NCBI GenBank assembly: GCA_026003015.1
Contig: BPGL01000002.1
Span: forward strand, 186,001-250,000
From: Actinomycetota bacterium
Lineage (GTDB): Bacteria > Actinomycetota > UBA4738 > HRBIN12
Reading direction: 5' to 3'
DNA: 64,000 bases
Notes under the pieces: model-generated
Seen by the model: only the letters and a program-made list of their open reading frames with translations
Databases searched by the model: none
What the model was told of the DNA's origin: nothing
Shown: positions 13,956 to 43,916 of the stretch, piece by piece
How positions within the stretch are numbered: the stretch's first letter is position 1
Layout of the letters: each line of letters begins with the position of its first letter
Translations under genes and position numbers: made by a program

Positions 13956-14891
13956 CTAGCCCGCCTCGACGGTCTCCGCCGCCGCCGGCGCCGGGTCGCG
14001 CAGCAGGAGCCGAGACAGGCCGAGCTCTCCTCGCTCGAGCGCGAACTCCACGGTGAGCGTCCGTCTGGCTGCCGCGAGGCGCTCCGGGGGCACGGCGGCG
14101 GAGTTCGCCGTGACGATGACGTCGGAGTCCCTGATGAGCCTATCGACCTCCTCGAGACGGTCGACGGTGACGCTTCGCACCTGGGCGAGCGAGTACTGGT
14201 GCACGAGCCCCTCGATCCGGCGACGGGAGCGCTCGTCTCGTGCGATGACGCCGATCCTCGTGTTCTGCGGGAGCTCCGCGAGCGCGCGCATGAACTCTTG
14301 CGCGGGCGCGAAGTTGAGCGGCACGAGGTCGACGTCGTCGGTGAGGAAGGCGCGTACATCGGCCAGATGGAAGAACGGAACGATCACCGTTCGTCCCGCC
14401 AGGACCCCCGGCCCAGCCCGAGCCTCCTCGATCAGCATCGGCACGACGCGGTGCTCCGGCGCCTCGCGCTGGACCTCGGCGGTCATCCGTGCGAGGTCAA
14501 CCGGGTTGCACTCGAGGAAGTAGACCGTGGGCTCGGGTCGGAAGACCTCCTCGATCACGTCGGTGACGATGCGCTCGAGCTCGTCGCGCGATCGACCGCT
14601 CAATCGCCACCGCATCGCCAAGCGCTGCATCTGCGCTTCGACGGTCGTGTGAGCACCCTCGGTTCGGGGCAGGGTGCGAGCCACGACGGCGCCTCGCCGG
14701 CTCGCCACCTGGACCCATCCCTCGCGTTCGAGCTCCTGGAGGGCCCGGCTCACCGTGCTCGGGCTGGCGCCGAGCTCGGCGCCGAGCTGGCGCACGGAGG
14801 GCAAGGGTCCTCCCGGTGCGTAGTGCCCCCGGAGGATGCGTTCCTCGATCGCCTCCTTGATGTCCCTCGCCGTCAGCGCAGGGCGGCCCAT
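13956..14891 (-). CDS. GntR family regulator with unusual C-terminal ligand domain
   Basis: A 311-residue regulator. Residues 5-72 form a GntR winged helix (PLPSVRQLGAELGASPSTVSR). The remaining 230 residues are not a FadR, UTRA or aminotransferase domain. They look like an alpha/beta ligand-binding fold (EPTVYFLECNPVDLARM, RTVIVPFFHLADV, TRIGVIARDERS, DSDVIVTANSA), perhaps LacI-like. A GGAGG ribosome site precedes the ATG. It lies between a DUF5591 protein and a secreted phospholipase-like protein on the same strand, and may also act on the divergent hydantoinase operon. Confidence 0.85.
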   Translation of the reverse strand: MGRPALTARDIKEAIEERILRGHYAPGGPLPSVRQLGAELGASPSTVSRALQELEREGWVQVASRRGAVVARTLPRTEGAHTTVEAQMQRLAMRWRLSGRSRDELERIVTDVIEEVFRPEPTVYFLECNPVDLARMTAEVQREAPEHRVVPMLIEEARAGPGVLAGRTVIVPFFHLADVRAFLTDDVDLVPLNFAPAQEFMRALAELPQNTRIGVIARDERSRRRIEGLVHQYSLAQVRSVTVDRLEEVDRLIRDSDVIVTANSAAVPPERLAAARRTLTVEFALERGELGLSRLLLRDPAPAAAETVEAG

Positions 14892-14971
14892 CCAGCGAGC
14901 CTCCTTCTCTCCGCCCGACCGTTCGAGCGGGCCTCGCGCGTCGATGATAGGCCTCCCGTCCGTCGCGTCCG

Positions 14972-16027
14972 TCAGGCGGCCACCAGGTCGACGAGGACCT
15001 CGAGCAGCTCTGGGAGGGCGAGCGGCGTCGCGCCGCCGCCGCCGCGGGCGTAGGCGGCGTGAACGGCGGCAGCCGAGATCGCCGGATCGTCCCGGGCGAG
15101 CCGCGATCGGAGCCGACGGATCGCGTCCTGGGTTTCGGCGCGGGTCGGATGGATCTCGACGAGCCCGGGGACGAGATCGTTGACGCCGACCAGCGGAAGG
15201 CGTCGTCCGCGGGCAACGCGAAAGGCTGCGATCCCGTCACGGCGGCGGTCCGCCGAGGCGGCCAGGAAGCTTCGATGCGTGAGGCCCGGTGCGACCCACG
15301 CGATCCGACGCTCGTAGCGGTCTTGGAGCCGACCGAGCGCTCGCCGGAGCTGTCGGCTCAAGGCGTTGTGCATCTCCACGTAGGCCGCCCGCTCGTTGTC
15401 GCCCCACCGCCAACGACCGGGCCGTGGGCCGGGCACCGCGGTGCAGTCGGATCGCCAGGGGGCGACGGAGGTGCCGCGGTGCTCGAACAGACCGGGGTCG
15501 TCGTAGCTCGCCGCGACGGAGGGCTCGCCTCGCCAGGTGTAGACGAACTCGTAGGGAACGAGCCCCAGCGGCTCGGAGACGACGAAGCGGTGCACGACGC
15601 GCTCGCGTCCGACGAGCGGGGACGCGTCGAGCACCGCCGGGTCTTCGTCCTCGTCGAGCACGTCGAGCAGCCGCTCGGGGATCGGCACGCCGCCGGTCGG
15701 CCGGAAGCCGGCGGCGAGCAACGCTGCGTTGATCCGCCGGTGCTCCAGGCTCGTGGGGTACGGCTTGTGCTTCGTGCACGGCACCAGGAGCGCGATCGCG
15801 CGCCCGGGCGGCAGGTCGGGTTCGTAGTCGTCGGCGATGAATCGCCAGAACGCCCGGACCCGTGGGTGATCCAACGCGTCGACGTTGTCTTGCGGGGAAT
15901 AGAGGCACAGCGTCGGGTCGAGCGAGAACGGGGGCCGGATCTTCGCCCGAGATCCGGCGAGCCGGTCGTCGGGCCTCAGCGCCACGGGGCCCGGCGGCGC
16001 TGTGTCTTCTGTCTCCCACAAGGTCAC
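14972..16027 (-). CDS. DUF5591 protein resembling the archaeosine synthase (ArcS) core
   Basis: A 351-residue protein. Residues 78-96 read AIALLVPCTKHKPYPTSLEH, which matches the ArcS core pattern PC-x3-KPY-x2-S-x2-H (C84, K88, Y90, S93, H96). A later segment VSEPLGLVPYEFV also matches that family. In archaea ArcS adds lysine to preQ0 in tRNA during archaeosine formation; what bacterial copies do is not established. Here the core stands alone, without a tRNA-guanine transglycosylase or PUA domain and with no 7-deazaguanine genes nearby. The start is a GTG. It is divergent from the hydantoinase gene. Confidence 0.65.
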   Translation of the reverse strand: MTLWETEDTAPPGPVALRPDDRLAGSRAKIRPPFSLDPTLCLYSPQDNVDALDHPRVRAFWRFIADDYEPDLPPGRAIALLVPCTKHKPYPTSLEHRRINAALLAAGFRPTGGVPIPERLLDVLDEDEDPAVLDASPLVGRERVVHRFVVSEPLGLVPYEFVYTWRGEPSVAASYDDPGLFEHRGTSVAPWRSDCTAVPGPRPGRWRWGDNERAAYVEMHNALSRQLRRALGRLQDRYERRIAWVAPGLTHRSFLAASADRRRDGIAAFRVARGRRLPLVGVNDLVPGLVEIHPTRAETQDAIRRLRSRLARDDPAISAAAVHAAYARGGGGATPLALPELLEVLVDLVAA

Positions 16028-16087
16028 ACCACCCTACTCGCGCATCTCGGCGCCGGTCAAGCGGGGCGCGGGCCGGTCGGGCGTGGG

Positions 16088-16135
16088 TGGACACGCCGCC
16101 CTCGTCCGGGTAGTGTCTCGCTGACTCAGACAGAC
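16088..16135 (+). promoter_or_regulatory. Candidate promoter with CAGAC repeats ahead of the hydantoinase operon
   Basis: TGGACA (16088-16093), a 17-base spacer and TAGTGT (16111-16116) resemble a sigma-70-type promoter. CTGACTCAGACAGACGAC follows, with two CAGAC copies sharing a base (16127-16131 and 16131-16135), in the early transcribed region. The CAGAC theme recurs at the promoters near 935 and 5637. The 159-base gap between the divergent genes holds nothing else recognisable. Confidence 0.5.
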
Positions 16136-16186: not shown

Positions 16187-17797
16187 ATGGGCGGTGAGCC
16201 GCTGGACCTCGCGGTGGTGAACGGAACCGTCGTGCTCGGCGGTGGGTCCTACGACGTCGGTGTTGGGGTGAAGGACGGAAAGATCGCGATCCTGGCCCCC
16301 GACGAGCTTCTCCCCCCCGCGAAGCGGAGGATCGACGCCCGGGGGAACTACATCTTGCCGGGCATCGTGGACTCCGAGGCGCATCCGGGGTGCTACGTGC
16401 CCTTCGAGTACGACATCCGAACGGAGTCCCGCACGGCCGCCTGCGCGGGCGTGACCACGTGGGGGATCCAGGCGCCGGTCACCCGACTCGGCATGGAGCC
16501 GTTCAAGGAGGTCGTGTCGCGCTCGGACGTGGTCTCGTTCAACGAGGCGTTCCCCGCCGCTCGGCGCATCCTCGAGGAGGTCAGCCACGTCGACGCGTAC
16601 CTGACGTACATGCTCGAGACGGACCAGCACGCCGACGAGATCCCCCAGTACGCGGAAGAGCACGGGGTCACCTCGTACAAGCTCTACTTGCAGACGCGCG
16701 GCATGAAAGGCATGGCCGACGACGAGGACAGCAACTGGCCCAGTCGACGCGCTGGCCTCGGGGTCGGGATCGACGACGGGACCGTGTACCGCGTGATGGA
16801 GGAGGTAGCCGGGCTCGGTTACCCGGGGATCGTGCACATCCACCCGGAGAACTGGGAGATCGCCAGGATCTTCGAGGCACGGCTGCGGGCGGCGGGCCGC
16901 ACGGACTTCGGAGCGTGGACCGATCGTTCCCCGGACTTCCTCGAGGCCCATCACATCCGCAGCTACGCGTACCTCGCGATGCAGACGCCCGGCCACGTGC
17001 CGTTGTACCTGCAGCACTGCACCACGAAGCTGTCCTTCGAGGAGGTCCGAAAGGCTCGAGCCGAGGGACTGGAGCTCTACGCTCAGACCGGCCCCGCCTG
17101 GTTGTGGGCCGAGCCCGAGTACGGTTGGCGGATCAACGTTCCGCTGCGTCGACGGGACAACATCGAAGCCCTGTGGCGAGCCCTCGCCGAGGGCATCGTC
17201 GATGTCGTGGGGTCCGACCACGTGGTGGGGTGGGAACCGGCGTCCTACGAGGAGATGTACAACCCGGTGATCTGGGACTGCCGGACCGGCTTCAGCCGGG
17301 TCGAGCTCTTCCTTCCGGTGATGCTGTCCGAGGGCGTCGCCAAGGGTCGCATCACGATGGAGCGGCTCGTGCAGGTGAGCTGCGAGAACCCTGCGAAGAC
17401 CGCGGGGATCTGGGGCACGAAGGGGTCGCTGCTCCCCGGCTTCGATGCCGACATCGTCATCGTCGACGCAAGCCGGGAGGTCACCGTCGGCAAGGAGCAC
17501 ATCAACACGCGTAGCGGGTGGTCGATCATGGAGGGCCACACGTTCACCGGCTGGCCGGTGATGACGATCCTGCGCGGGGACGTCACGGCCGAATGGGCCG
17601 ACGACTCGCCGGGGATGCGACCCGTGGGCGAGCCTCGTGGTCGGTACCTGCCGCGGTCGCTCCAGGCCCGCAGACCGGAGATCGAACTGACGAGCCCGGT
17701 GCGCACGGCGCCGATCGACCGGGCGTCGGCCGATTCGTTCGAGCGTCCGGGGTTCACCGACTCGACCCTCCGGTACACGGCCGTACGAGGAGGGTAG
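16187..17797 (+). CDS. Hydantoinase/dihydropyrimidinase-like amidohydrolase
   Basis: A 536-residue cyclic-amidase-type protein. VTSYKLYLQ holds the lysine that is carboxylated in hydantoinases. Metal histidines are present in VHIHPEN and YLQHCTT, and the catalytic Asp in GSDHVVG. The usual first metal pair HxH after the PGxxD turn reads SEAH, so the first His is replaced by Glu. The ATG at 16187 has a purine-rich ribosome site (GGAAGGGAG); the frame is open further upstream, but nothing there looks coding. It heads an operon with a carbamoyl-amidase-like hydrolase three bases later. It is probably a ring-opening amidase; the substrate is unknown. Confidence 0.85.
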   Translation: MGGEPLDLAVVNGTVVLGGGSYDVGVGVKDGKIAILAPDELLPPAKRRIDARGNYILPGIVDSEAHPGCYVPFEYDIRTESRTAACAGVTTWGIQAPVTRLGMEPFKEVVSRSDVVSFNEAFPAARRILEEVSHVDAYLTYMLETDQHADEIPQYAEEHGVTSYKLYLQTRGMKGMADDEDSNWPSRRAGLGVGIDDGTVYRVMEEVAGLGYPGIVHIHPENWEIARIFEARLRAAGRTDFGAWTDRSPDFLEAHHIRSYAYLAMQTPGHVPLYLQHCTTKLSFEEVRKARAEGLELYAQTGPAWLWAEPEYGWRINVPLRRRDNIEALWRALAEGIVDVVGSDHVVGWEPASYEEMYNPVIWDCRTGFSRVELFLPVMLSEGVAKGRITMERLVQVSCENPAKTAGIWGTKGSLLPGFDADIVIVDASREVTVGKEHINTRSGWSIMEGHTFTGWPVMTILRGDVTAEWADDSPGMRPVGEPRGRYLPRSLQARRPEIELTSPVRTAPIDRASADSFERPGFTDSTLRYTAVRGG

Positions 17798-17799
17798 GG

Positions 17800-18549
17800 A
17801 TGGCGATCTGGGACGACGTGCTCACCGAACGCGATCGCCAGGTGTTCGCCGCCGCCGGTTGGGGAGCTCGAGCTGGGTTCGGGGAACGACCGGCGGTGAT
17901 GGTGATCGACGTCAACTACAACTTCTGCGGTGACCGCGCGGAGCCGATCCTCGAATCGATCAAGCGGTGGCGCTTCTCGTGTGGAGAGGTGGCTTGGACG
18001 ACCGGCATCCCCGCGATCCGACGGATCCTCGACGTGGCGCGGCGCAAGCGGCTGCCGGTGATCTACACGACCAACCCGAGGCGTCCCGACGGGTTCGACC
18101 TCGGCGTCTGGTATGCGAAGAGCTCCCGGTCGCGGGAGGAGGTCGACGTGCGGGGACATCGGGGGAACGAGATCGTGGCCGAGATCGCCCCCGAGCCGGG
18201 CGACATCTTCATCGAGAAGCGCAAGCCGTCGGCGTTCTTCGGCACACCGTTGATGAGCCATCTGACGATGCTTCGCGCCGATTCCCTGATCCTCACCGGC
18301 ACGACCACGTCCGGATGCGTACGTGCGACCGCTGTCGACGCCCTGTCCTACGACCTCAAGGTCACGATCCCTCAGGAGGCCGTCTTCGATCGGGGCGAGG
18401 TCTCGCACAAGATCGCGCTGTTCGATCTGCACATGAAGTACGTGGATGTGACGGACACCGAGGAGGTTCTGACCTACCTGGATGGGCTCGAGGCGGGGTT
18501 GTTCGACGATCGCTTCCCGCCGGCTCGCGCAAGAGCGGGTGCCCGATGA
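17800..18549 (+). CDS. Cysteine hydrolase, isochorismatase / N-carbamoylsarcosine amidase-like
   Basis: A 249-residue member of the isochorismatase-like fold. The catalytic triad is visible: Asp in VMVIDVNYNF, Lys in IEKRKPSAFFG and Cys in TTTSGCVRATAVDA. N-carbamoylsarcosine amidases and related amide hydrolases share this layout. It starts three bases after the hydantoinase stop, so the two probably act in sequence: ring opening to a carbamoyl or amide acid, then release of ammonia and carbon dioxide. That order is inferred from context. Confidence 0.88.
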   Translation: MAIWDDVLTERDRQVFAAAGWGARAGFGERPAVMVIDVNYNFCGDRAEPILESIKRWRFSCGEVAWTTGIPAIRRILDVARRKRLPVIYTTNPRRPDGFDLGVWYAKSSRSREEVDVRGHRGNEIVAEIAPEPGDIFIEKRKPSAFFGTPLMSHLTMLRADSLILTGTTTSGCVRATAVDALSYDLKVTIPQEAVFDRGEVSHKIALFDLHMKYVDVTDTEEVLTYLDGLEAGLFDDRFPPARARAGAR

Positions 18550-19127: not shown

Positions 19128-20327
19128 GTGATGCCGGAGCCACGCACGACCGCTCTCGTCAACATCGGGCGTCTCTTCACGGGCGCTCTGGAGCAGCCGA
19201 CCGCCGATCACGACGCGCTGCTGATCCGCGACGGGGTCATCGCGGGCCTCGGGGAGCAGGTCGATCCGCGCGATGCCGAACGCGTGATCGACGTCGGGGG
19301 CGCGACCGTGGGACCGGGTCTGATCGACTCCCACTGCCACGTCGTCTTGGGCGACTACACACCGCGTCAGCAGACGGTGGGGTTCCTCGCCTCGTACGTC
19401 CATGGAGGGATCTGCCAGGTGATCTCCCCCGGGGAGATCCACGCGCCGGGTCGCCCCCGCGATGCGACGGGCGTGAAGGCGCTCGCGGTCCTCGCCCAGC
19501 GCTCGTGGTCGACCTACCGGCCCAACGGGATGAAGGTGCACGGGGGCGCGGTCGTGATCGAACCGACCCTGGGCGAAGGGGACTTCCGGGAGCTCGCCGC
19601 CGAGGGCGTGTTCCTCGCGAAGTTCGGCTTCGGCGCGTTCGAGGACCCCGTGGATGGGGAGCCCCAGGTCCGGTGGGCTCAGCAGGCCGGCATCAAGGTG
19701 ATGTGCCACTCGGGCGGCGCCTCGATCCCAGGATCGCTCGCGATCACGCCCGAGGTGCTCCTGGCCCTGCATCCGGACGTGTGTGGGCACGTCAACGGGG
19801 GACCGACCTCGCTGGACGAGCGCGGCGTGGCCCGCATCGTGGCCGAGACGGACATGATGCTGCAGCTCGTCCAGGCCGGGAATCTTGCGAGTGCCCTGCG
19901 GATCGTCGAGCTCGTCCGTGAGCATGCGCAACAGCACCGGGTGATCCTCGGATCCGACACGCCGACGGGGACCGGCGTCATGCCGCTCGGGGTGCTCAAG
20001 ACGATGGCGGAGCTGTGTTCGCTCGGCGGCGTCGAGCCCGCAACCGCCTGGGCGTGGGCGTCCGGGGTGACGGCCCGCTTCTACGGGCTGCGCTCGGGGC
20101 TGATCGAAGTCGGCCGCCCGGCGGATCTCGTGGTGTGCGACGCCCCTTGGGGATCGGTGGCGTCGGACGCTGAGGGGGCGCTGCGTCGCGGCGACATCCC
20201 CGGCATCTCGGCGGTGTTGATCGACGGCGTGGTTCGCGCATTGCGCTCGCGCAACACGCCCGCTGCGGCGCGGCCCGTCGTCGTGAGGCCCGAGATCGAC
20301 GAACCGCCGGGCTCGGGACACGTGTGA
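19128..20327 (+). CDS. Enamidase-like metal-dependent amidohydrolase
   Basis: A 399-residue amidohydrolase. It has DSHCHVVLGDY (HxH metal pair), VMCHSGG, GHVNGGPT, and LGSDTPTGTGVMPLGVL (catalytic Asp), a combination characteristic of enamidase, the nicotinate-fermentation enzyme that hydrolyses tetrahydro-6-oxonicotinate to 2-formylglutarate and ammonia. A carboxylated Lys is plausible in VFLAKFGFGAF. The start is GTG 19128 or ATG 19131. An aldehyde dehydrogenase two genes later could oxidise an aldehyde product. The nicotinate link is by family resemblance only; no other nicotinate gene is here. Confidence 0.72.
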   Translation: MMPEPRTTALVNIGRLFTGALEQPTADHDALLIRDGVIAGLGEQVDPRDAERVIDVGGATVGPGLIDSHCHVVLGDYTPRQQTVGFLASYVHGGICQVISPGEIHAPGRPRDATGVKALAVLAQRSWSTYRPNGMKVHGGAVVIEPTLGEGDFRELAAEGVFLAKFGFGAFEDPVDGEPQVRWAQQAGIKVMCHSGGASIPGSLAITPEVLLALHPDVCGHVNGGPTSLDERGVARIVAETDMMLQLVQAGNLASALRIVELVREHAQQHRVILGSDTPTGTGVMPLGVLKTMAELCSLGGVEPATAWAWASGVTARFYGLRSGLIEVGRPADLVVCDAPWGSVASDAEGALRRGDIPGISAVLIDGVVRALRSRNTPAAARPVVVRPEIDEPPGSGHV

Positions 20328-20344
20328 CCGACGGAGGGAAGAGC

Positions 20345-20965
20345 GTGAGCCGCGAGGGGATCATCGATGAGGTGCTGATCCCCGCACGCGAGGGCCGCGG
20401 GGTGCGGATGCGTGTGGGGCAGCTCCTGGACGTCGTGGATGTCGAGGGGCACCAGGTTGGGGATCTGATCGCGTGGTGCCTGGACGACCCGTCCGAGTAC
20501 CTATCGCCGACGCACACGGTCTCCTGCAACGCGTCGATCCGACTGAAGGCGGGATCCCAGGTGTTCTCGAACCGCCGCAACCCGCTGTTCACGATCGTCC
20601 GGGACGACGTCGAGCGTCACGACATCATCGTCCCGTGCTGCGATCGCGAGCGCTACGAGCGGGACTTCGGGCTGCCGAACCACCCGCACTGCCTGGGCAA
20701 CCTCCACGACGCTCGCGACCGGCTCGGAGAGACGCGAGAGCTGCACGGGGAGATGGCGTGGAACGTATTCATGCACAACCGCGTGACCGAGGACGGGGCC
20801 GTCGTGACGGACCGGGCGGCGCACGGCGCGGGGTCGACGATCACGCTCGAGGCGCATCGGGACCTCGTGGTGCTCGTCTCTGCCTGCCCGCAGGACCTGA
20901 CGCCGTGCAACGACTTCGATCCGACCTCGATGCTCTTGCGGGTGCGCGAGCGGGGTGACCGGTGA
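20345..20965 (+). CDS. DUF1989 (urea carboxylase-associated) family protein
   Basis: A 206-residue protein of the DUF1989 family, whose members often sit beside urea carboxylase or allophanate genes. Visible features are LLDVVDVEGHQVGDLIAWCLDD, the SPTHT segment, SNRRNPLFTIV, CCDRERYERDFG with its cysteines, and CPQDLTPCNDFDPT near the end. GTG 20345 is preferred because GGAGG lies seven bases before it; an in-frame GTG at 20324 overlapping the previous stop is the alternative. It probably handles a nitrogen-containing intermediate. Its catalytic role is uncertain. Confidence 0.82.
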   Translation: MSREGIIDEVLIPAREGRGVRMRVGQLLDVVDVEGHQVGDLIAWCLDDPSEYLSPTHTVSCNASIRLKAGSQVFSNRRNPLFTIVRDDVERHDIIVPCCDRERYERDFGLPNHPHCLGNLHDARDRLGETRELHGEMAWNVFMHNRVTEDGAVVTDRAAHGAGSTITLEAHRDLVVLVSACPQDLTPCNDFDPTSMLLRVRERGDR

Positions 20966-22416
20966 GCGGCGGGGCCGAGTGGCTGCGCGCCTCTGGCGAG
21001 CGAGCGACGATCCGCGCACCGGCGGACGGTTCGTCGGTCGGCGACGTGCGGTCGGCCACGGAAGGGGACGTGCGCGAGGCGGTCGCCGCCGCCCGCTCGG
21101 CGCTGTTGACGTGGGCCCGGACGCCGCCGCACGCGCGGGCTCGGATCCTCGGGGACGCCGCGGCGGCCATCGAGGCGAACGCCGAGGAGCTCGCCCGCCT
21201 GCACGCGAGGGAGAGCGGCAAGGTCATCGCCCAGGCCCGACGAGAGGTGGTGGGGGCGGCGGACCTGCTCCGTGCCGACGCGACGACCGGTCGGTTCGCC
21301 GATGGCCGCGTTCTGCCGACCGGCGCGGTGCCGGGGACGGAGCACGACCTTGCGTGGGTGGAGCGCGTTCCTCTCGGCGTGGTCGCCTGCGTGATCCCGT
21401 TCAACTTCCCGGTCGAGCTCACCGTGGTCAAGGCGGGGGCGGCGATCGCTGCCGGCAACGTCGCGATCGTGAAGCCGCCGCCCCAGAACCCCCTCGCGAC
21501 GCTGCGAGCCGTCGAGCTCTTGGTCGAGGCAGGGCTGCCCAGCGGGGTCCTGCAGGCCGTCCCCGGCGGCGCCCAGGTGGGTGCCGCGCTCTGCGCTTCC
21601 CCGGGGGTCGACGCGGTCTCGCTCACGGGCAGCGTGGGGGCCGGGGTGGCCGTCGCCCGTTCCACCGCCCACCTCCTGCGGCCGTTGCACCTGGAGCTCG
21701 GGGGGAACGGGGCGGCTGTGGTGCTGGACGACGCGGATGCCGACCTCGTGGTCGCGGAGGTCGTTCGGGGGCGACTCCTGATGAACGGGCAGGCCTGCGC
21801 GGCGACGAAGCGGCTGGTCGTGGTTCGAAGCGTCGCCGACGCCCTCGTGGGACGGATCGACGAGGCGCTCGCGCGCGTCCGCGTCGGGGACCCGCTCGAC
21901 GAAGCGTCGGAGGTCGGCCCGCTGATCGATGAGGGGGCGGCGACGCGGGTCGAGGCGCAGGTCCGTCGAGCCGAGGAGCAGGGGGCCAAGCGGATCCGCG
22001 GATCGGGACGGGCGCGCGACGCCTGGTTCGAACCGACGCTTTTGACCGGGGTTCCACCCTCGTCGGACGTGGCGGTCGACGACGAGATCTTCGGACCGGT
22101 CCTGGCCGTCATCCCGGTGGAGGACGACGAGGAGGCCGTCGAGGTCGTCAACCGATCCCGCCTCGGACTGACGGCGGCCGTCTTCTCGGGCAACACGCGG
22201 CGAGCGCTCGCGATCGCCGACCGCCTGGCGGTGGGCGGCGTCGTGATCAACGGCTCCAACAACTACCGACCGCCGGTGGTGCCGTTCGGCGGGGTGGGGA
22301 TGGCCGGCACCGGGCGCGAGGGGATCGGGTACACGTACGAGGAACTGACCCGGACGCGGTTCACCGTGCTCCGCGGTGTCCGGCGACCTACCGGGGACGC
22401 GGAGGTCGATCGGTGA
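20962..22416 (+). CDS. Aldehyde dehydrogenase family protein
   Basis: A 484-residue NAD(P)-dependent aldehyde dehydrogenase. The catalytic Cys is in NGQACAATKR and the general-base Glu in LELGGNGA. PFNFPVELTVVKAG and LTGSVGAG belong to the cofactor-binding fold, and EIFGPVLAV is near the C-terminus. The GTG start overlaps the DUF1989 stop and its own stop overlaps the aldolase-like gene. It could oxidise a semialdehyde released by the enamidase-like enzyme. Confidence 0.93.
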   Translation: MSGGAEWLRASGERATIRAPADGSSVGDVRSATEGDVREAVAAARSALLTWARTPPHARARILGDAAAAIEANAEELARLHARESGKVIAQARREVVGAADLLRADATTGRFADGRVLPTGAVPGTEHDLAWVERVPLGVVACVIPFNFPVELTVVKAGAAIAAGNVAIVKPPPQNPLATLRAVELLVEAGLPSGVLQAVPGGAQVGAALCASPGVDAVSLTGSVGAGVAVARSTAHLLRPLHLELGGNGAAVVLDDADADLVVAEVVRGRLLMNGQACAATKRLVVVRSVADALVGRIDEALARVRVGDPLDEASEVGPLIDEGAATRVEAQVRRAEEQGAKRIRGSGRARDAWFEPTLLTGVPPSSDVAVDDEIFGPVLAVIPVEDDEEAVEVVNRSRLGLTAAVFSGNTRRALAIADRLAVGGVVINGSNNYRPPVVPFGGVGMAGTGREGIGYTYEELTRTRFTVLRGVRRPTGDAEVDR

Positions 22417-23096
22417 GCGATCCCCGCGCCCAGGTCGCCTCCGCGGCCCGCATGTTGGCTCGTGCGGGGCTCGTGCACGCGTTCGGCCACGTATCGATGC
22501 GCGTGGACGACGGGATCGCGATCACGTCGACCCGACCGCTCGCCTCCGCATCGCCCGACGACGTGCTCCTCGTGGGATCCGACGGCGAGGTGCGCTCGGG
22601 GCCGGCGGACGCGGTGCCGATCGAGCTCGCGCTGCACCGAGGGATCTTCGCCGCGCGATCCGACCTCGGCGCGATCGCCCGAGGCCATCCTCCCGCCGCC
22701 GTCGTGTGGGGGGTGGGCCTGGAGGACCTGCCCCTCATCCACGGTCTGGGCGCGCTCGCCGGCGAGCGCGTCGCGGTGCACCCGGATCTCGACCTGATCG
22801 CGACCGACGAGCAGGCGCTCGGGGTCGCGAGGTCGCTCGGGGGCGGCTACGGGCTGATCCTGCGGGGCAACGGGGCGCTCGCGTGCGGGGCCACACCGCT
22901 GGAGGCGGCGACGCGACTGTTCTTCCTCGAGGACCGAGCTCGCGTGGCGCTGGGTCGTTGGTCGGGCCCGACCGGTCGCCCGCCGGAAGCGGAGGGGTGG
23001 TCGCGCCGGCTCCGTCATGTGGACGCGGAGCTCGAGCGGGCGACGGCGTGGTTCGAGGAGGTGTTCGGTGACGGGAGGTCCGATGGAAAGGGGTGA
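22413..23096 (+). CDS. Class II aldolase/adducin-fold protein
   Basis: A 227-residue protein of the AraD/FucA fold. GHVSMRVDD matches the phosphate/metal loop, PIELALHRGIF supplies the catalytic-position Glu, and ARGHPPAAVVW has a zinc His. The second HxH zinc motif of true aldolases is weak here, with VAVHPDLDLI and RGNGALACG in the corresponding region. It could be an aldolase or a decarboxylase. It is coupled by a 4-bp overlap to the aldehyde dehydrogenase. Confidence 0.8.
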   Translation: MSDPRAQVASAARMLARAGLVHAFGHVSMRVDDGIAITSTRPLASASPDDVLLVGSDGEVRSGPADAVPIELALHRGIFAARSDLGAIARGHPPAAVVWGVGLEDLPLIHGLGALAGERVAVHPDLDLIATDEQALGVARSLGGGYGLILRGNGALACGATPLEAATRLFFLEDRARVALGRWSGPTGRPPEAEGWSRRLRHVDAELERATAWFEEVFGDGRSDGKG

Positions 23097-23102: not shown

Positions 23103-24107
23103 ATGAGGAGCACGCGACGCAGGTGGCGGGTGATCGCGCTGGCCGTCGCGAGCCTGCTGGCTCTCGGGTCTTGCGGCGGTGGTGCGGCAGATGATGGGGG
23201 CGGCGAGGCCCCGACCCAGCCGACCGAGGTGCAGCTCATCCTGGACTTCGTTCCGGGCGGGATCCACGCGGGGATCTTCGCGGCGAAGGAAGAGGGCTTC
23301 TTCGAGGAAGAGAACCTCAACGTCGACATCCAGTCGCCGACCTCGTCGGCGGATACCCTCCGGCTGGTCCTCGCGGGCCAATCGACGATCGGCATCGCTC
23401 CGATCGCCGACGTGGCCAACCTCCGAGCTCAGGGCGAGGAGATCCAGGCCTTCTTGGCGCTGACGCAGGTCCCGCTCGCCGCGCTCATGAGTACCGAGGC
23501 GATCGGGATCACCGACCCGAGTCAGCTCGCCGGCGGGACGATCGGGGTCACGGGCGTGCCGTCCGACGAAGCCATCGCTCGGGTGATCCTCGAGGACTCG
23601 GGGGTCGATCCGAGCTCGGTCGAGTTCATCACGATCGGCTTCGACGCGGTCGCGAACCTGATCAGCCAGTCCGTCGACGCCGCGATCGGATTCTGGAGCG
23701 CCGAGGCCGTCGCGCTCGAGCTCGAGGGCGAGAAGCCGATCGTCTTCCGCCCGGACCAGTACGGTGCCCCGCCGTACCCCGAGCTCGTCTTCTTCGCGAG
23801 CACGACGACGATCGAAGAGCGCCCCGAAGTGCTCGAGGCGTTCGCCCGGGCCCTGGCGAAGGGGTACGACTTCGCGCTCGCCAACACCGGGCAGGCGATC
23901 GCGGACCTCGTGGCCAACGCGGACGGTGCCGACGCCGAGTTCGCCACGGCCGAGTTCGAGAACGTCCGCGACTACTTCGTCGGTCCGAACGGCTCGTTCG
24001 GAGAGATCTCGGAGGACTCGATCGCCGACTACCTCCAATGGGCGGCCGAGGTCGGCGTGATCGAGTCCGTCCCGCAGGGGCTGGTCACGACGCGGTTCGT
24101 ACCGTAG
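23103..24107 (+). CDS. NMT1/THI5-type ABC substrate-binding lipoprotein
   Basis: A 334-residue binding protein with a lipoprotein signal (LLALGSCGGG). The NMT1/THI5 fold shows in VQLILDFVPGGIHAGIFAAKEEGFFEEENL, SADTLRLVLAGQSTIGIAPIADV and VTGVPSDEAI. Relatives bind pyrimidines (thiamine precursors), riboflavin, nitrate, sulfonates or hydroxymethyl compounds. It is followed by an ATPase and a permease of the same importer class. An enzyme operon for cyclic nitrogen compounds surrounds it, so the ligand may be a pyrimidine-like molecule. Confidence 0.9.
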   Translation: MRSTRRRWRVIALAVASLLALGSCGGGAADDGGGEAPTQPTEVQLILDFVPGGIHAGIFAAKEEGFFEEENLNVDIQSPTSSADTLRLVLAGQSTIGIAPIADVANLRAQGEEIQAFLALTQVPLAALMSTEAIGITDPSQLAGGTIGVTGVPSDEAIARVILEDSGVDPSSVEFITIGFDAVANLISQSVDAAIGFWSAEAVALELEGEKPIVFRPDQYGAPPYPELVFFASTTTIEERPEVLEAFARALAKGYDFALANTGQAIADLVANADGADAEFATAEFENVRDYFVGPNGSFGEISEDSIADYLQWAAEVGVIESVPQGLVTTRFVP

Positions 24108-24118
24108 AGGCACGCGGG

Positions 24119-24148
24119 CTGCGGGGGGCCGGGGAGCGCCCCCCGCAG
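24119..24148 (+). other. Strong hairpin between binding-protein and ATPase genes
   Basis: CTGCGGGGGGC (24119-24129) and GCCCCCCGCAG (24138-24148) form an 11-bp perfect stem with an 8-base loop. It sits in the 55-base gap after the binding-protein stop. There is no T-run, so it is not a classic intrinsic terminator. Such intercistronic hairpins commonly protect the upstream message, which would give more binding protein than ATPase. Confidence 0.6.
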
Positions 24149-24162
24149 ACGCAGGAGGGGCG

Positions 24163-24957
24163 GTGGACACGCACGCGAGGATCGTGGTCGAAGGCGTTCG
24201 CAAGAGCTACCCGGGGTCAGCGGGCCCGGTCCCGGTGCTCGACGGGGGTCGACGTTCGCGTGGGCGCGCACGAGTTCGTGAGCGTGCTGGGCCCGAGCGG
24301 CTGCGGCAAGTCGACCCTGTTCAACATCATCGCGGGGCTCGAGGAGCCGAGTTCGGGCACGGTGAGCGTCGACGGTCACACCGAGCGACGGATCGGGCGG
24401 TGCGGGTACATGCCGCAGAAGGACCTGCTGATGCCGTGGAAGACGATCGCGGACAACGTTGCGATCGGACGCGTGATCAAGGGCGAGCCGAAACGAGCAG
24501 CGCGGCTCGCCGCGATCGAGATCCTGGAGCGCTTCGGCCTCGGGAACTTCGTCGACCACTACCCAAGCCAGCTGTCCGGGGGGGATGCGGCAGCGAGCGG
24601 CCCCTGGCCAGGACGTTCTTGGCCGGGAACGACGCCCTGCTGCTCGATGAGCCGTTCGGGGCGCTCGACAGCCTCACGAGGCTCCGCATGCAATCGTGGC
24701 TGCTGCAGATCTGGCAGGAGAGCGCGGCGTCGGTGCTGTTCATCACCCACGATGTCGATGAGGCGATCCGGCTGAGCGACCGCGTCTACGTCTTCACGGA
24801 ACGCCCGGCGACGGTGGCGGTGACGATCGACGTCGATCTACCGCGTCCGCGTCCCTATGAGACGGTGCTCACCGAGGCGTTCGCCGCCCTGAAGGAGATC
24901 GCGATCCGCCACCTGCACACCGAAGAGGTGGTTCCGGATCCGGAGCGTGCGGGATGA
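24163..24957 (+). pseudogene. ABC transporter ATPase (SsuB/TauB/ThiZ-like), broken by three +1 indels
   Basis: The GTG start and the first 26 or so codons are in one frame (VVEGVRKSYPG). The middle, with Walker A GPSGCGKST and Q-loop YMPQKDLLMPW, is in another. The signature reads LSGG and then breaks. The end, with LLLDEPFGALDSL and FITHDVDEA, is back in the first frame. Removing one G from 24244-24248, one G from 24578-24584 and one C from 24601-24604 restores a continuous 263-residue ATPase including LSGGMRQRAALARTF. All three changes are in G or C runs, so sequence error is likelier than decay. It is called a pseudogene as written, and overlaps the permease start. Confidence 0.85.
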
Positions 24958-25724
24958 GCGGACGGTGGCAGCGCACGCTCGCGCCGGTCGCCTTCGGGAT
25001 CGGGGTGGTCTCCGCCTGGCAGGTTGGAACGGCGGTCTTCGACGCGGATCCCCGGATCCTGCCGTCCCCCCTCGATGTCCTCGCCGCGATCGCCAAGGAC
25101 CCCGGGGTGTTGGCCCGCAACGCGTGGACGACGATCGTCGAGATGGTGCTCGGCTTCGTGGTCGGCGCCTCCATCGGTCTCGTCTTGGGAGTCGCGCTGG
25201 CGTACTCGAGGATCGTGCGCACCTCCGTGTACCCCTGGCTCGTCGTCAGCCAAACGATCCCGATCCCCGCGATCGCCGCGGTTCTCGTGATCTGGTTCGG
25301 GTTCTCCATCCTCCCCAAGGTCCTCGTCGTCGCCCTGATCACCTTCTTCCCGGTCGCCGTGTCCACCACCGACGGGCTGAACGCCGTCGACCCCGATCTC
25401 GTCCGCCTGATGCGGGCGCTCGGAGCGAGCAAGCTGCAGGTGTTCCGCGAGGTGAGGATCCCTGCGGCCCTGCCGCACGTGTTCACGGGCATGAAGGTCG
25501 CTGCGGCGTTCGCGGTCCTGGGCGCGGTGTTCGGCGAGTGGGTCGGCGCCCGCGGCGGGCTCGGGTATCTCCTGCTCCTGCAGAACCGTGCGGTGAACAC
25601 CGACGTGGTGTTCGCGGTGATCTTCATCCTCTCCCTGTTGGGGGTCGGTTTCTTCGGCCTCGTCGCGCTGGTCGAACGTCTCACGATCCCCTGGTACCAC
25701 CGCCAGCGGAAGGATCAGCGATGA
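24954..25724 (+). CDS. ABC transporter permease (nitrate/sulfonate/pyrimidine type)
   Basis: A 256-residue permease with about six membrane segments of the SsuC/TauC/ThiX class. Signatures are LPSPLDVLAAIAKD, the amphipathic coupling loop VRLMRALGASKLQVFREVRIPAALPHVFTG shared by that class, and GARGGLGYLLL. The ATG overlaps the ATPase stop and the gene overlaps the aminotransferase start. It completes the importer with the NMT1-type binding protein. Confidence 0.94.
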   Translation: MSGRWQRTLAPVAFGIGVVSAWQVGTAVFDADPRILPSPLDVLAAIAKDPGVLARNAWTTIVEMVLGFVVGASIGLVLGVALAYSRIVRTSVYPWLVVSQTIPIPAIAAVLVIWFGFSILPKVLVVALITFFPVAVSTTDGLNAVDPDLVRLMRALGASKLQVFREVRIPAALPHVFTGMKVAAAFAVLGAVFGEWVGARGGLGYLLLLQNRAVNTDVVFAVIFILSLLGVGFFGLVALVERLTIPWYHRQRKDQR

Positions 25725-26974
25725 CCGAAGGCGGCCCGCTGGTGATGGATGCCGAGACCCTCGAGGCCTACCGCGACGATTTCCTGCGCCACCTCGCGCA
25801 GACCGTACCCGGCCGCAAGGAGCTCGTGATCGAGCGAGCGCGGGGGTCGGTTCTGTTCGCGGCCGACGGGAAACGGTACCTCGACATGATCTCCGGCATC
25901 GGCGTGTCGAACGTCGGCCACTGCCATCCGGACGTCGTCCGCGCGATCAAAGAGCAGGCGGAACGGTTCGCCCATGTGAACGTCTACGGTCGCTTCGTCC
26001 TCCCGCCGCAGGTGGACCTGGTCAGGCGCCTGACGAGCGTGACCCCCCGGGGGCTGGACGTGGCGTTCCTCACGAGCACCGGCACCGAAGCGATCGAGGG
26101 TGCGCTGAAGCTCGCCCGCAAGTACACGGGGCGACCGAAGTTCGTCGCCTTCGAGCGGGCGTTCCACGGCCGGACGCTCGGCTCGCTGTCGGTCAGCTGG
26201 AAGCAGGCGTATCGCGCGCCGTTCGAGCCCCTGCTCCCGGAGGTCGAGTTCGTCCCGTTCGACGACGTCGATCGCGCCGCCGAGGCGATCGACGAGCGAA
26301 CCGCAGCGGTGATCGTCGAGCCGATCCAGGGAGAAGGCGGCGTGCGGATCCCGAGCGACGGCTTCCTGCAGGCGCTTCGCCGGCTCTGTACCGAGCGGGG
26401 AGCGCTGCTCATCTGCGACGAGGTCCAAGGCGGGATGGGGCGTTCCGGGCGGTGGTTCTCCTTCGAGCACTGGGGGATCGTCCCCGACGTCGTCGTCGCC
26501 GCCAAGGCGCTCGGGGGAGGTCTCCCGCTGGGCGCGTTCGTCTCGACGCAGGAGATCTTCCAGACGTTCCTTGATCCGCCGCTGTCGCACCTCACCACGT
26601 TCGGCGGGAACCCCATCTCCTGCGCGGCCGCGATCGCGGCCTTCGACGTGATCCGCCGCGAGGGTCTGGTGGAGCGCGCAGCGAGCCTCGGGGCCCGGCT
26701 CGAGGAGCGCCTGCGCAACGTGCAGCTCGAGCACGCTGGGACGATCACCGAGGTCCGCGGGCGTGGGCTGTGGTACGCGGTCGACGTCTCGCCGCCGGAG
26801 CTCGCGATGCCCCTGGTCGCCGAGATGCAGCGACGGGGTGTGATCGTGGGGTCCATGCTCCACGCCGACGGCACGATCCGGATCGCTCCTCCGCTGACCG
26901 TCCTCGAGGCCGAGCTCGATGTGCTGATCGGCGTGCTGCGCGCGTCGCTCCGCGAGCTGGGTCGTGCCCGATGA
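25721..26974 (+). CDS. Class III (PLP-dependent) aminotransferase
   Basis: A 417-residue fold-type I PLP enzyme of the acetylornithine/4-aminobutyrate group. Features are ISGIGVSNVGHCHP, STGTEAIEGALKLAR, AFHGRTLGSLS, EPIQGEGG, DEVQGGMGRSG (the PLP-ring Asp), and the Schiff-base Lys in AAKALGGGLPLGA. It overlaps the permease and amidohydrolase genes by 4 bp each. It probably removes the amino group from an omega-amino acid (for example beta-alanine or 4-aminobutyrate) released from the imported compound. Confidence 0.92.
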   Translation: MTEGGPLVMDAETLEAYRDDFLRHLAQTVPGRKELVIERARGSVLFAADGKRYLDMISGIGVSNVGHCHPDVVRAIKEQAERFAHVNVYGRFVLPPQVDLVRRLTSVTPRGLDVAFLTSTGTEAIEGALKLARKYTGRPKFVAFERAFHGRTLGSLSVSWKQAYRAPFEPLLPEVEFVPFDDVDRAAEAIDERTAAVIVEPIQGEGGVRIPSDGFLQALRRLCTERGALLICDEVQGGMGRSGRWFSFEHWGIVPDVVVAAKALGGGLPLGAFVSTQEIFQTFLDPPLSHLTTFGGNPISCAAAIAAFDVIRREGLVERAASLGARLEERLRNVQLEHAGTITEVRGRGLWYAVDVSPPELAMPLVAEMQRRGVIVGSMLHADGTIRIAPPLTVLEAELDVLIGVLRASLRELGRAR

Positions 26975-28338
26975 CGGCCACGATCGTTCGCGGGGAGTGG
27001 GTCCTGACGATGGGTCCGCTCGGTGACCTCCGTGACGGGGGTGTCCTCATCCGGGGCGGTGCGATCGAGGCCGTCGATGCCTACCGTGCGCTACGGGACG
27101 CGTTCCCCGACGCGGAGGTCGTCGGGGACGGCGCGGGGGTCGTGCTTCCCGGGCTGATCAACGCCCACACGCACCTGTCGGAGGCCTTGGTCCCGGGCAT
27201 GGGCTCTGAGCTGACCCTGTTCGAGTGGGGCAGGCGGATCGTGACGCCCGTCGGCGATCATCTGACCCGGGAGATGGCGCGCGTCGGCACGCAGCTTCGC
27301 GCGATCGAGATGCTGCGCAGCGGGGTGACGACGGTCAACGACATGTTCGTTCACGGCAACCGCGGCTCGTTCGCCTCGCTCGGCGTGGTGGATGGGCTGC
27401 GTTCGGTCGGGCTGCGCGGCGTCGTGAGCTTCGGCGCCGAGGACGCGATCGAAGGCGCGACGCCCCTGACGGTGGGTGACGTCGTGGACGAGCACGAGGC
27501 GCTCGCCGGTCACGTCGGAGCGGATCGGCGCATCGGGTTCCGCTATGGCATCGGCACGCTTCTCGGGCAGTCCGACGGCCTGCTGGCGCGCGGGGTCGAG
27601 CTGTGCGTCGCCAACGGGTGGGCGGTTCACACCCACCTGGCCGAGGTTCGCGAGGAGAACGTGATGGCGTCCCTTCGATGGGGGCGACGTACGATCGAGC
27701 ACGCCGAGGCGATCGGGCTGTTAGACGTCCCCGTCCTCGCAGGTCACGGGATCTGGCTGACGGAGGACGACGTGGACCGTCTCGTGCGCCACGGGGTCGC
27801 GGTCTCCTACAACCCCGTGGCGAACATGATCCTGGGCTCGGGGGTCTGCCCCGTCCAGCGCCTGCGAAGGGCCGGGATCGCGGTCGGGGTGGGCACCGAC
27901 GGGGCGGCCTCGAACGATTCGCAGAACATGCTGGAGGCGGTCAAGGTGGGCGTGCTCCTGCAGAAGGTCGCGGCCACCGATCCCGCGGTGATGTCCGCGC
28001 GCGACGCCCTGGCCATGGCGACGATCGAGGGGGCTCGCGCCCTGGGGCTCGACGATCGGATCGGGTCGCTCGAGCCGGGCAAGCGGGCAGACGTCGTGCG
28101 GCTCGCCGGAACGGTGGAGCTCGCCACGGTGCACGACCCCTACCAGCAGGTCGTGTTCTGCGCCGGACCGCGTTCGGTCCGAGATGCCTGGGTGGAGGGG
28201 CACCGGTTGCTCGCCGACGGCGCGCTGGTGGACCTGGACGAGGACGGTGTGATCGAGGCGAGCCGCCCGCTCGCGCGAGAGCTGGCCGAGCGGGCTGGGT
28301 TGGTCGAGGCCGGCCTTTCGTGGCTACCGACGACGTGA
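26971..28338 (+). CDS. TrzN/ATZ-type amidohydrolase (first copy)
   Basis: A 455-residue amidohydrolase of the cytosine deaminase/TrzN/AtzB group. The mononuclear metal site is NAHTHLSE (HxH), VHTHLAEVREE (His and Glu), AGHGIW (His), and GTDGAASND (Asp). It probably deaminates or dechlorinates an aromatic nitrogen ring or hydrolyses a related C-N bond. It is strongly similar to the protein at 43913-45301 (shared NPVxNMILxSGxCPV and HDPYQxVVxCAGPR). It is coupled to the class III aminotransferase by an ATGA overlap. Confidence 0.88.
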   Translation: MTATIVRGEWVLTMGPLGDLRDGGVLIRGGAIEAVDAYRALRDAFPDAEVVGDGAGVVLPGLINAHTHLSEALVPGMGSELTLFEWGRRIVTPVGDHLTREMARVGTQLRAIEMLRSGVTTVNDMFVHGNRGSFASLGVVDGLRSVGLRGVVSFGAEDAIEGATPLTVGDVVDEHEALAGHVGADRRIGFRYGIGTLLGQSDGLLARGVELCVANGWAVHTHLAEVREENVMASLRWGRRTIEHAEAIGLLDVPVLAGHGIWLTEDDVDRLVRHGVAVSYNPVANMILGSGVCPVQRLRRAGIAVGVGTDGAASNDSQNMLEAVKVGVLLQKVAATDPAVMSARDALAMATIEGARALGLDDRIGSLEPGKRADVVRLAGTVELATVHDPYQQVVFCAGPRSVRDAWVEGHRLLADGALVDLDEDGVIEASRPLARELAERAGLVEAGLSWLPTT

Positions 28339-29909
28339 TCGTGATCGGCGGCGGCCACAACGGCCTCGCCTGCGCAGCCTGGCTCGTACGCCACGGGGTC
28401 GGCGTGACGGTTCTGGAGGCCAACGCCGAGCTCGGCGGGTGTGTCTGGACCGAGGAGCTCGACTCGGGGCACCGGCTCGAGCGGGGCGCGATCGATCACA
28501 GCGGGGTGGTCGGGCTCGCCGAGGAACTCGAGCTCCATCGCTTCGGCTTGCGGTTCCACCACTCGGAGGAGCTGCTCGCAGCGGGGTTCGCCGACGGCAC
28601 GCGGATCGGGATCGCCCAGGACCTGGAGCGCACGGTCGCACGCGTCGAGGCCGTCTTCCCCGGCGACGGCGACGCGTATCGGCGACTGGCCGTCCTGGCT
28701 CAGGCGGTCTTCGGATTCGTCGAGCAACCGTCGCCGCCGAGCTTCGCGGACGTCGTGGCGCTCGCGACCGCCGCTCGGGGGTCGGGCGATCTCGTTCGTC
28801 TCCTCGTGGCATCGAGCGAGTCCGTCCTGGCGGAGCGGATCGAGGCGCCGCTGTTGCGCTCGGCCCTGGCGATGGCCGGCTCGCACAACCAGCTTCCGCC
28901 CTGGCTGCCGGGGACCGGGATCTTCGCGCTGCTCGGTCCGTCGGTGCACGGACGGCCGGCGGCGCGCCCCGTGGGGGGGTCGGCGGGGTTGATCCGTGCG
29001 CTCGGCCGAGCGATCGAGGCCGGCGGCGGCCGGATCGTCACCGATGCGAGGGTCGATCGGATATCCGAGGCAGGCCACGGGGTCGTCGTGTGGACCTCCC
29101 GGGATCGCTTCCACGCACGAACGGTGGTCTCCAGCCTCGACGTCGTTCGAACGACGCGCCTGCTCGAGCGGCCGAGCGACGAGTTCCGCTCAGCCTGCCG
29201 CCGCGCGCGGACCGGGGCGCTCAACGTCGCAGAGCTCAAGGTCGACCTCGCGCTCGACCGCCCGGCGACGATCGGGTTCGACGGTGGGGATCCGCGGGCG
29301 CTGTGGCTCCTGCAGGAGCACGAACGGTCGCTCGGCGACGCGTTCCGATCGATCCTGGCGGGTCGGCTTCCCGACACCGCCGCGATGATGTGGGCGTCGC
29401 CCTCCGCGATGGACCCGGAGGCAGCGCCGCCCGGCGGAGGCGTCGTCTGGCTCTCGTCCTTCGTCCCGGGTCGACTCGCCGACGGCTCGTGGGACGAGTC
29501 CCAAGAGGAGCGCGCCGCCGACCGGCTGCTCGAGGGGTTCCGACGGATCACCGGGGTGGACCTCGCCCCGTCGATCCTGGTGCGACGGGTGACCTCCCCA
29601 CGCCTGTGGCGCCATCGGATCGGTACCGACAACCCGAACCACCTCGACCTCACCCTCGACCAGCTGTTCTCCTGGCGGCCCCCGATCGCGGCGCGCCCCT
29701 ACCGGACGCCGCTGCCCTGGCTGTACCTCAGCGGCGCGGGGACCTACCCCGGTGGCGGCCTGAGCGGGATCCCGGGCCGGAACGCGGCGCGTGCGGTGCT
29801 CGAGGATCTCCGCGGGCACCGCAGGAGCCCGTGGTCGACCGCGCGGAGCGAACTGCGGGGCCTCCGTCGGGCGATGGCCGCCTACCTCGCGATGCGGAGG
29901 TCGACGTGA
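28320..29909 (+). CDS. FAD-dependent phytoene-desaturase-family oxidoreductase
   Basis: A 529-residue flavoprotein of the phytoene desaturase/NAD(P)-FAD family. The N-terminal VIVIGGGHNGLACAAWL is the dinucleotide-binding motif, ending in an Glu (VLEANAELGG). The C-terminal LYLSGAGTYPGGGLSGIPGRNAA is the family FAD motif. A GTG at 28320 overlaps the amidohydrolase by 19 bases; GTG 28335 is an alternative. No carotenoid genes are adjacent, so it may act on another hydrophobic or cyclic substrate. It overlaps the methyltransferase start. Confidence 0.85.
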   Translation: MATDDVIVIGGGHNGLACAAWLVRHGVGVTVLEANAELGGCVWTEELDSGHRLERGAIDHSGVVGLAEELELHRFGLRFHHSEELLAAGFADGTRIGIAQDLERTVARVEAVFPGDGDAYRRLAVLAQAVFGFVEQPSPPSFADVVALATAARGSGDLVRLLVASSESVLAERIEAPLLRSALAMAGSHNQLPPWLPGTGIFALLGPSVHGRPAARPVGGSAGLIRALGRAIEAGGGRIVTDARVDRISEAGHGVVVWTSRDRFHARTVVSSLDVVRTTRLLERPSDEFRSACRRARTGALNVAELKVDLALDRPATIGFDGGDPRALWLLQEHERSLGDAFRSILAGRLPDTAAMMWASPSAMDPEAAPPGGGVVWLSSFVPGRLADGSWDESQEERAADRLLEGFRRITGVDLAPSILVRRVTSPRLWRHRIGTDNPNHLDLTLDQLFSWRPPIAARPYRTPLPWLYLSGAGTYPGGGLSGIPGRNAARAVLEDLRGHRRSPWSTARSELRGLRRAMAAYLAMRRST

Positions 29910-43044: not shown

Positions 43045-43916
43045 GCGACGAGCTGCGGCTCGCGGTCGCGCAGCCGCGCATGGTGCCGGAACCGGAGGCC
43101 GAGCGCAACGTGGACCGGGCGGTCGAGCTGATCGCCCGGTCCGCGACGCGCGGAGCCCAGCTGATCCTGTTCCCCGAGGGCTCGCCCGGACCGTACCGGC
43201 CGACCTCGAGCTACGACGCGGCCCCCCGGATCGAGGCGGCTGCGGCCGAGCACGGGGTGGCGGTGTGCTGGAGCCGGGTCGAGCGATGTTCCGACGGCCA
43301 CCTGCGTCTCGTGGTCTACGTGGTCGACGATCGGGGTCGAGAGATCCTCCGCTACGAGCGCGCCCATCCCGCTACCCTTCCGCCGGAGCAGACCGACGGG
43401 TGGATTGCTCCCGGACCCTCCCTCGCCAGCTTCGATCTGTTCGGCGTCCGGTTCGGGGTGGTCGTGTGCTCGGAGCTGTGGATCCCCGAGCCGGCCCGCG
43501 TGCTCGCGATCCGGGGCGCGGAGGTGTTGCTGTCGCCGGCGGGTGGGCGCTTCACGACGCTCACGGCCAACTGGCAGGTGATCGCGCGCGCGCGGGCGAT
43601 CGAGAACCTCGCCTACGTCGCCCTCACGAACAACCTGTTCGGCGACGAGATCGGGGCCGCGATGATCACCGGGCCCGAAGATGTCGCCGCCGCCTCGGGG
43701 GTGGACGAGCTTCTCGTGGCCGACCTCGATCTCGAGCGCGCGCGGTGGCTGCGCGACCACGACGACTCGATCGAGGAGCCCAAACCGTTCGCATCGATCC
43801 CGGGGCTGCTGCGGGCCCGCCGCCCGGAGCTGTACGCGGAGCTCGTCTCCGCGGACGTCCCTGTGTTCGACTACCACACGCCCAGAGGGTCGGCCGAGCC
43901 CGCTCGGAGCGCATGA
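43041..43916 (+). CDS. Carbon-nitrogen hydrolase (nitrilase) family protein
   Basis: A 291-residue nitrilase-fold protein. The catalytic Glu is in LILFPEGSPG and the Cys in GVVVCSELWIPEP. The catalytic Lys position (usually YRKxHL) reads RYERAHP, so Lys is replaced by Arg. Either the enzyme works with Arg or it has a changed function. It overlaps both the binding protein and the amidohydrolase, so it probably acts on the imported compound, as an amidase, nitrilase or N-carbamoyl hydrolase. Confidence 0.85.
   Translation: MSDELRLAVAQPRMVPEPEAERNVDRAVELIARSATRGAQLILFPEGSPGPYRPTSSYDAAPRIEAAAAEHGVAVCWSRVERCSDGHLRLVVYVVDDRGREILRYERAHPATLPPEQTDGWIAPGPSLASFDLFGVRFGVVVCSELWIPEPARVLAIRGAEVLLSPAGGRFTTLTANWQVIARARAIENLAYVALTNNLFGDEIGAAMITGPEDVAAASGVDELLVADLDLERARWLRDHDDSIEEPKPFASIPGLLRARRPELYAELVSADVPVFDYHTPRGSAEPARSA

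Follow-up and report, generated by a model that had tools for sequence, protein, structure and literature searches.

What is known of the DUF5591 domain comes from archaea, where its part in tRNA modification has been characterised, and from phages, where it has been implicated in modifying DNA. In archaea, ArcS carries this domain and acts on preQ0-containing tRNA; it also adds lysine to the preQ0 nucleoside and, better, to the 5′-monophosphate, so that the fold may accept small nucleosides as substrates (PMC11298593). For the free base the precedent is negative: free preQ0 is no substrate of the ArcS of T. kodakarensis, which converts the nucleoside only slowly (PMC11298593). Among viruses, Vibrio phage nt-1 is described as having an ArcS homologue together with dG+, dPreQ0 and dADG in its DNA, and the authors consider that some phage ArcS proteins may also act as amidohydrolases (PMC6884629). 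Stand-alone DUF5591 proteins, as known from phage nt-1 and the archaeal viruses STSV1 and STSV2, are also the form in which the domain occurs at the locus studied here, a 64,000-nucleotide stretch of an Actinomycetota genome (the window). Here, however, the neighbourhood is catabolic: unlike the nt-1 homologue, which sits in a DNA-modification gene set rather than in a catabolic operon (PMC6884629), the window gene adjoins an operon that uses relatives of the enzymes of enamidase-, hydantoinase- and isochorismatase-based N-heterocycle degradation. Searches of open-access papers brought up no pathway that combines these genes with a DUF5591 protein, and none of the titles they gave concerned deazaguanine catabolism or a bacterial catabolic ArcS.

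The DUF5591 protein is encoded on the minus strand by an uninterrupted ORF (14972..16027; GTG at 16027, stop at 14972) of 351 aa; its true start is uncertain, as the homologues start about 16 to 19 residues further on. The protein contains LLVPCTKHKPYPTSLEHRRIN, an exact match to PC-x3-KPY-x2-S-x2-H, the core motif shared with archaeal ArcS; the ArcS core pattern spans residues 83 to 96 (PCTKHKPYPTSLEH), and C84, K88-P89-Y90, S93 and H96 are placed as an earlier note on this DNA had read them. The motif match is not a chance one. Membership in DUF5591, suspected before from the motif, is borne out by the profile search: Pfam PF17884 matches residues 59 to 103 with 27.5 bits (E 3.2e-6), the gathering score being 26. 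Also as anticipated, a second ArcS-like segment (SEP...VPYE...YDDPG, residues 151 to 179) aligns in order with its counterpart (SxP...VPxE...YD) in the viral DUF5591 proteins, and neither a PUA nor a TGT-like domain is among the Pfam matches at E<=10. The NCBIfam ArcS models NF040592 and NF053620 match the same stretch locally, through their core part, and reach 27.5 and 30.1 bits where the cut-offs are 440 and 600. The protein is therefore a member of the domain family and no ArcS by curated criteria; with scores of around 30 bits and no TGT-like or PUA domain, identity with full-length ArcS is excluded. It further differs from archaeal ArcS in being bacterial, in its catabolic context and in coming from a genome without a TGT gene.

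Relatives of this bacterial type are rare. When 84,980 species genomes were scanned with short exact peptides, a single one, 50% identical, came up in the metagenome-assembled genome “Actinomycetes bacterium BroJett022” (L002), and tblastn against 72,556 plasmid records gave another in Rhizobium sp. ACO-34A (45.6% identity over 83%). Within the phylum, the domain is present in 2 of 396 genomes, that of the window (G000) and G177, and a search with the Pfam model recovers this pair; we take G177 to be the same genome as the BroJett022 assembly, so that the bacterial set comprises three proteins, the only bacterial members of this type found. Both homologues score above the DUF5591 cut-off (34.5 and 30.7 bits). 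At identities of 44 to 50% the motif core is invariant in all three: P83, C84, K88, P89, Y90, S93 and H96 are kept, so that the cysteine, lysine, serine and histidine whose loss in close homologues would have spoken against the earlier assignment are all retained. Also common to the three are S151, E152, P153, V157, P158, Y159, E160 and Y175-E182, and a stretch conserved in the bacterial proteins only (GLFE..RG...WR.D.T...WGD.E...YV.MHN, residues ~177 to 221) holds a W-R-x-D-x-T and a W-G-D-x-E...M-H-N run. A tblastn search of 50,697 phage records found no relatives, nor were members of the bacterial subfamily found in viral contigs, and a phage origin of this subfamily was rejected on these grounds.

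More distant relatives do occur in viruses. Motif scans of viral contigs revealed DUF5591-like ORFs in 4 of 14 stretches in the first scan (L018, L020, L021 and L024) and in none of 10 in the second; the remaining stretches were chance matches or short frames. Three of the viral proteins were scanned with Pfam, and two pass the cut-off of 26, with L020 falling below it at 22.9 bits. The bacterial trio aligns with the four viral proteins, which had been found by the core motif itself, through both segments at an hhalign probability of 97.7, and hmmsearch agrees in both directions. Invariant in the joint alignment are C84, K88-P89-Y90, S93, H96, S151, P158, Y175 and D176. The viral proteins share the motif and the second segment but are shorter (~185 to 206 aa) and are without the bacterial insert (~177 to 210), which forms the first part of the stretch conserved in the bacterial proteins. 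Two of them, annotated as hypothetical, are the stand-alone proteins of the Sulfolobus spindle-shaped viruses STSV1 (L018 7092-7649) and STSV2 (L024 9549-10112), possibly virus-encoded archaeosine-type enzymes. The DUF5591 stretch of phage nt-1 is among the tblastn matches of L021 and is related to it, and two Synechococcus phages gave weak matches as well.

The predicted structure points to the same family. An AlphaFold2 model from six sequences reached a mean pLDDT of 60, with ~74 to 94 for the core residues 51 to 170; a first model from two sequences (mean pLDDT 38) was set aside. Among the folds in the VIA list, to which that comparison is limited, the best match by far was the archaeal protein AF0587 (PDB 2q07), with Z 10.2 over 131 residues at 26% identity (VIA-align) against Z 3.9 for the next row. 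Plain Foldseek with the six-sequence model gave no match at E<=0.001. The structural alignment covers part of each chain and the sequence match to AF0587 is weak (E 0.38), although the KPY motif aligns; the model matches the DUF5591 fold of this solved member.

As the earlier note had it, the gene lies beside a GntR-type regulator and diverges from an amidohydrolase operon; the regulator gene (13956..14891, minus strand) follows on the same strand after a gap of 80 bp, and the operon runs on the plus strand from ~16187. Its first gene encodes a hydantoinase/dihydropyrimidinase-like amidohydrolase (16187..17797), followed by an isochorismatase-family cysteine hydrolase with weak resemblance to biuret hydrolase and RutB (17794..18549), an AA_synth protein (PF06684; 18540..19124), an enamidase-like amidohydrolase (19128..20327; closest solved relative 2vun, ENAMIDASE, E 2.3e-108), a DUF1989 protein of the urea-amidolyase-associated type (20324..20965), an aldehyde dehydrogenase (20962..22416) and a class II aldolase/decarboxylase-like protein (22413..23096). 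An ABC importer of the NitT/TauT type comes next (23103..25724), with an NMT1-like binding protein (23103-24107), an ATPase (~24060-24954) and a permease (24954-25724). Further downstream, on the same strand, lie a COG0402-type aminohydrolase related to MTA/SAH, 8-oxoguanine and guanine deaminases and to triazine hydrolases (26968..28338) and a CrtI/CrtO-like FAD-dependent oxidoreductase (28326..29906) that is kept in the operon of other lineages. The ATPase gene is split between reading frames (24060-24954), which suggests small insertion or deletion errors of the assembly or a decayed gene; other ORF boundaries in this genome have to be read with care. A second COG0402-type aminohydrolase (43913..45301, plus strand) directly follows a carbon-nitrogen hydrolase gene (43041..43916, plus strand).

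GntR counterparts that are 48 to 50% identical accompany the operon in two further genomes (G038 and G052), and therefore the window regulator is probably that of the operon. The divergent intergenic region contains an inverted repeat, TGTCTC-N-GACA (16114..16132), as a candidate operator, and a similar site is found at the same junction in G052 (L057 4049); since a hand estimate gives about one chance match of this pattern per window, its location alone is suggestive.

The operon recurs, whole or in part, in three other actinobacterial lineages. According to tblastn it is nearly collinear in the window genome, G177 and G225, with a partial and rearranged set in G038 and G052. In G177, whose proteins are 37 to 56% identical to those of the window, the aldehyde dehydrogenase gene stands at the front instead; in G225 it has changed places with DUF1989. 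A relative of the hydantoinase at E<=1e-60 was found in 7 of the 396 genomes (G000, G010, G038, G052, G177, G225 and G242); that of G010 is a fragment with one internal stop, and that of G242 is 40% identical and accompanied, of the queries, by the isochorismatase alone. DUF5591 is present in two of the six genomes with a hydantoinase relative of at least 50% identity, the G010 fragment included, and in none of the other 390. The chance of finding both DUF5591 genomes among those six, worked out by hand, is 15/78210, a figure that does not allow for kinship of the genomes within the phylum. G225 and G038 have the operon without DUF5591, which is therefore not essential to the core pathway and is an optional part of operon-bearing genomes.

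The carbon-nitrogen hydrolase is a stronger partner of DUF5591 than the hydantoinase operon. Close relatives of it (E<=1e-80) are restricted, among the 396 genomes, to the same two, a coincidence with a chance, by hand calculation, of 1/78210 if genomes were independent samples, which they are not; four further genomes match at 33 to 35%. In the window 27 kb separate the two genes. The G177 copy of the hydrolase, 57% identical, lies in the same run as DUF5591, in the order transporter genes, carbon-nitrogen hydrolase, HDAC-like gene and DUF5591, of which the last three overlap at their ends. The Rhizobium locus combines DUF5591 with two aminohydrolases, an HDAC-like gene, an aldehyde dehydrogenase, a 4-hydroxyphenylacetate 3-monooxygenase-type gene with a flavin reductase, an amidase and an Amdase-family protein; neither the hydantoinase operon nor the carbon-nitrogen hydrolase was found in the three Rhizobium stretches read (L003, L052 and L053). 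An HDAC-like gene stands just before DUF5591 in G177, and Rhizobium has a stretch 55% identical to it at a distance of 4.7 kb from DUF5591. The G177 copy matches several solved relatives strongly, and therefore similarity at that level is nothing special; with this unspecific similarity and a window copy (30893-32044) that is only 37 to 39% alike, the HDAC-like gene was rejected as a conserved partner. On the Rhizobium plasmid this gene (L003 20091-21358) carries no annotation and is divided between two frames by an apparent frameshift.

The window protein is real and rare and is best read as putting a known domain to catabolic use, its function being deduced from context only. Since the gene tracks the operon and the carbon-nitrogen hydrolase in both genomes, we propose, with a probability of roughly 0.55, that it encodes an accessory catabolic enzyme: a stand-alone DUF5591 protein that serves as an accessory module in the catabolism of small N-heterocycles and takes no part in tRNA or DNA modification. 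Gene context is the strongest evidence for this role. The same co-occurrence makes a free small N-heterocycle the better reading of the substrate, which narrows the choice left by the earlier note between nucleic acids (tRNA, DNA) and free purines or pyrimidines; the domain and the active site named there stand. The inactivity of T. kodakarensis ArcS on the free preQ0 base counts against the proposal, as do the operons of G225 and G038 that have no DUF5591, the small number of three bacterial members, the Rhizobium stretches in which neither the hydantoinase operon nor the carbon-nitrogen hydrolase was found, and the 27 kb between that hydrolase and DUF5591 in the window.

To the observed fold, conserved residues, operon linkage and absence of TGT and a credible QueC, we add an inferred chemistry. 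Cys84, assisted by Lys88, Ser93, His96, Ser151 and Tyr175-Asp176, might attack the electrophilic carbon of a C-N group (of the nitrile, amidine or imine type) in an imported heterocycle or an early intermediate. The resulting covalent thioimidate would be released by water, ammonia or an amine, and the product could be passed on to the carbon-nitrogen hydrolase and to the enzymes that open the ring in the core pathway (the aminohydrolase, the hydantoinase-like, isochorismatase-like and enamidase-like enzymes and the aldehyde dehydrogenase), so that the DUF5591 module would equip this pathway for a substituted substrate. The thioimidate step proposed for a DUF5591 protein is carried over by analogy from the thioimide chemistry of QueF and QueF-L (PMC5485725). 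A bacterial stand-alone and operon-linked DUF5591 protein suggests that its cysteine chemistry was recruited to small-molecule metabolism.

The archaeal and phage precedents make modification of a nucleic acid a competitor: the enzyme would convert preQ0 or a related base within DNA or tRNA to an amidine or amide, and this base would come from outside or be provided by other enzymes. The domain acts on preQ0-tRNA in archaea, and the DUF5591 stretch of nt-1, a phage with deazaguanines in its DNA, is related to a viral protein of our set, but the genome of the window is poorly equipped for such a route. It had been proposed to look for queD, queE and queC and for tgt or dpdA; the TGT and QueC families were searched, with the result that in the assembly, which is 90.5% complete, no TGT-family match was detected by a search that was positive in all 14 control genomes, and QueC matches are fragmentary (24.4 and 19.5 bits). 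Across this genome and G177 the QueC matches are short fragments of 19.5 to 24.4 bits, one per genome passing a low cut-off of 22, and the one in the window (~49.7 kb) is not a credible QueC, lying within a LarE-like ORF beside a LarC-like ORF (labels by eye). Without TGT and a credible QueC, modification of preQ0 in tRNA or DNA is unlikely, and the preQ0/tRNA route was rejected. The DUF5591 protein has no PADLOC match and no PUA domain, and its gene is linked to a catabolic operon, all of which leaves the modification of nucleic acids decidedly improbable. A riboswitch link was rejected too, since no Rfam family reaches gathering scores in the window or in four other stretches (L043, L002, L054 and L056) and window positions 13000-25000 give nothing even at E<=1. 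BroJett022 does have a TGT (C2:112035-113162, L012) beside its fragmentary QueC matches, which suggests that a 7-deazaguanine is salvaged from outside.

Somewhat less improbable, yet still a poor candidate, is detoxification, in which lysine or another amine would be added to a nitrile-bearing nucleoside antibiotic of the toyocamycin type and the operon would be a coincidental neighbour. The lysine transfer of ArcS to the preQ0 nucleoside and its monophosphate speaks for it, but the gene tracks the catabolic operon and the carbon-nitrogen hydrolase in two lineages, the GntR regulator of the operon adjoins it, and several hydrolases are present in each of the three gene contexts. Least probable of all is a ligand-sensing partner of GntR that has kept the fold and lost the chemistry. 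In its favour, gntR immediately follows the window gene in the same orientation. Against it, three distant members have each retained the cysteine, lysine, serine and histidine; moreover, the neighbours of DUF5591 in G177 and Rhizobium are enzyme genes, and no relative of the window GntR turned up by tblastn at E<=1e-10 in what was read of these two.

Within the proposed catabolic role, the degradation of 7-deazaguanines (preQ0, archaeosine base and queuine-type bases) fits the predicted enzyme set chemically, but we consider this specific assignment of the operon rather unlikely. A COG0402-type enzyme would take off the 2-amino group, the hydantoinase-like enzyme would open the pyrimidinedione, and the isochorismatase-like enzyme would remove the ureido group. 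The remaining pyrrolinone, a cyclic enamide, would be opened by the enamidase-like enzyme to an aldehyde for oxidation by the aldehyde dehydrogenase, and a nitrile or amidine at C7 would be handled by the ArcS-like protein together with the carbon-nitrogen hydrolase. The absence of TGT from the genome neither helps nor harms this idea. If it were true, archaeosine synthase chemistry, which elsewhere helps to build a deazaguanine, would here have been put to work in breaking one down. The operon gives a list of possible inducers and could show how bacteria recycle nitrogen from unusual nucleobases.

Two further features of the window may be mentioned. The LarC-like and LarE-like ORFs adjoin each other (48191-50481, by eye) and are possibly a pair of nickel-pincer cofactor genes. 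Positions 1-13203 form a second dense catabolic run with a GntR-UTRA regulator, an M20 peptidase, a short-chain dehydrogenase, an oligopeptide-type ABC transporter, an Amidohydro_3 protein (D-aminoacylase-like by eye), a two-gene transketolase-type dehydrogenase E1 and a glyoxalase.
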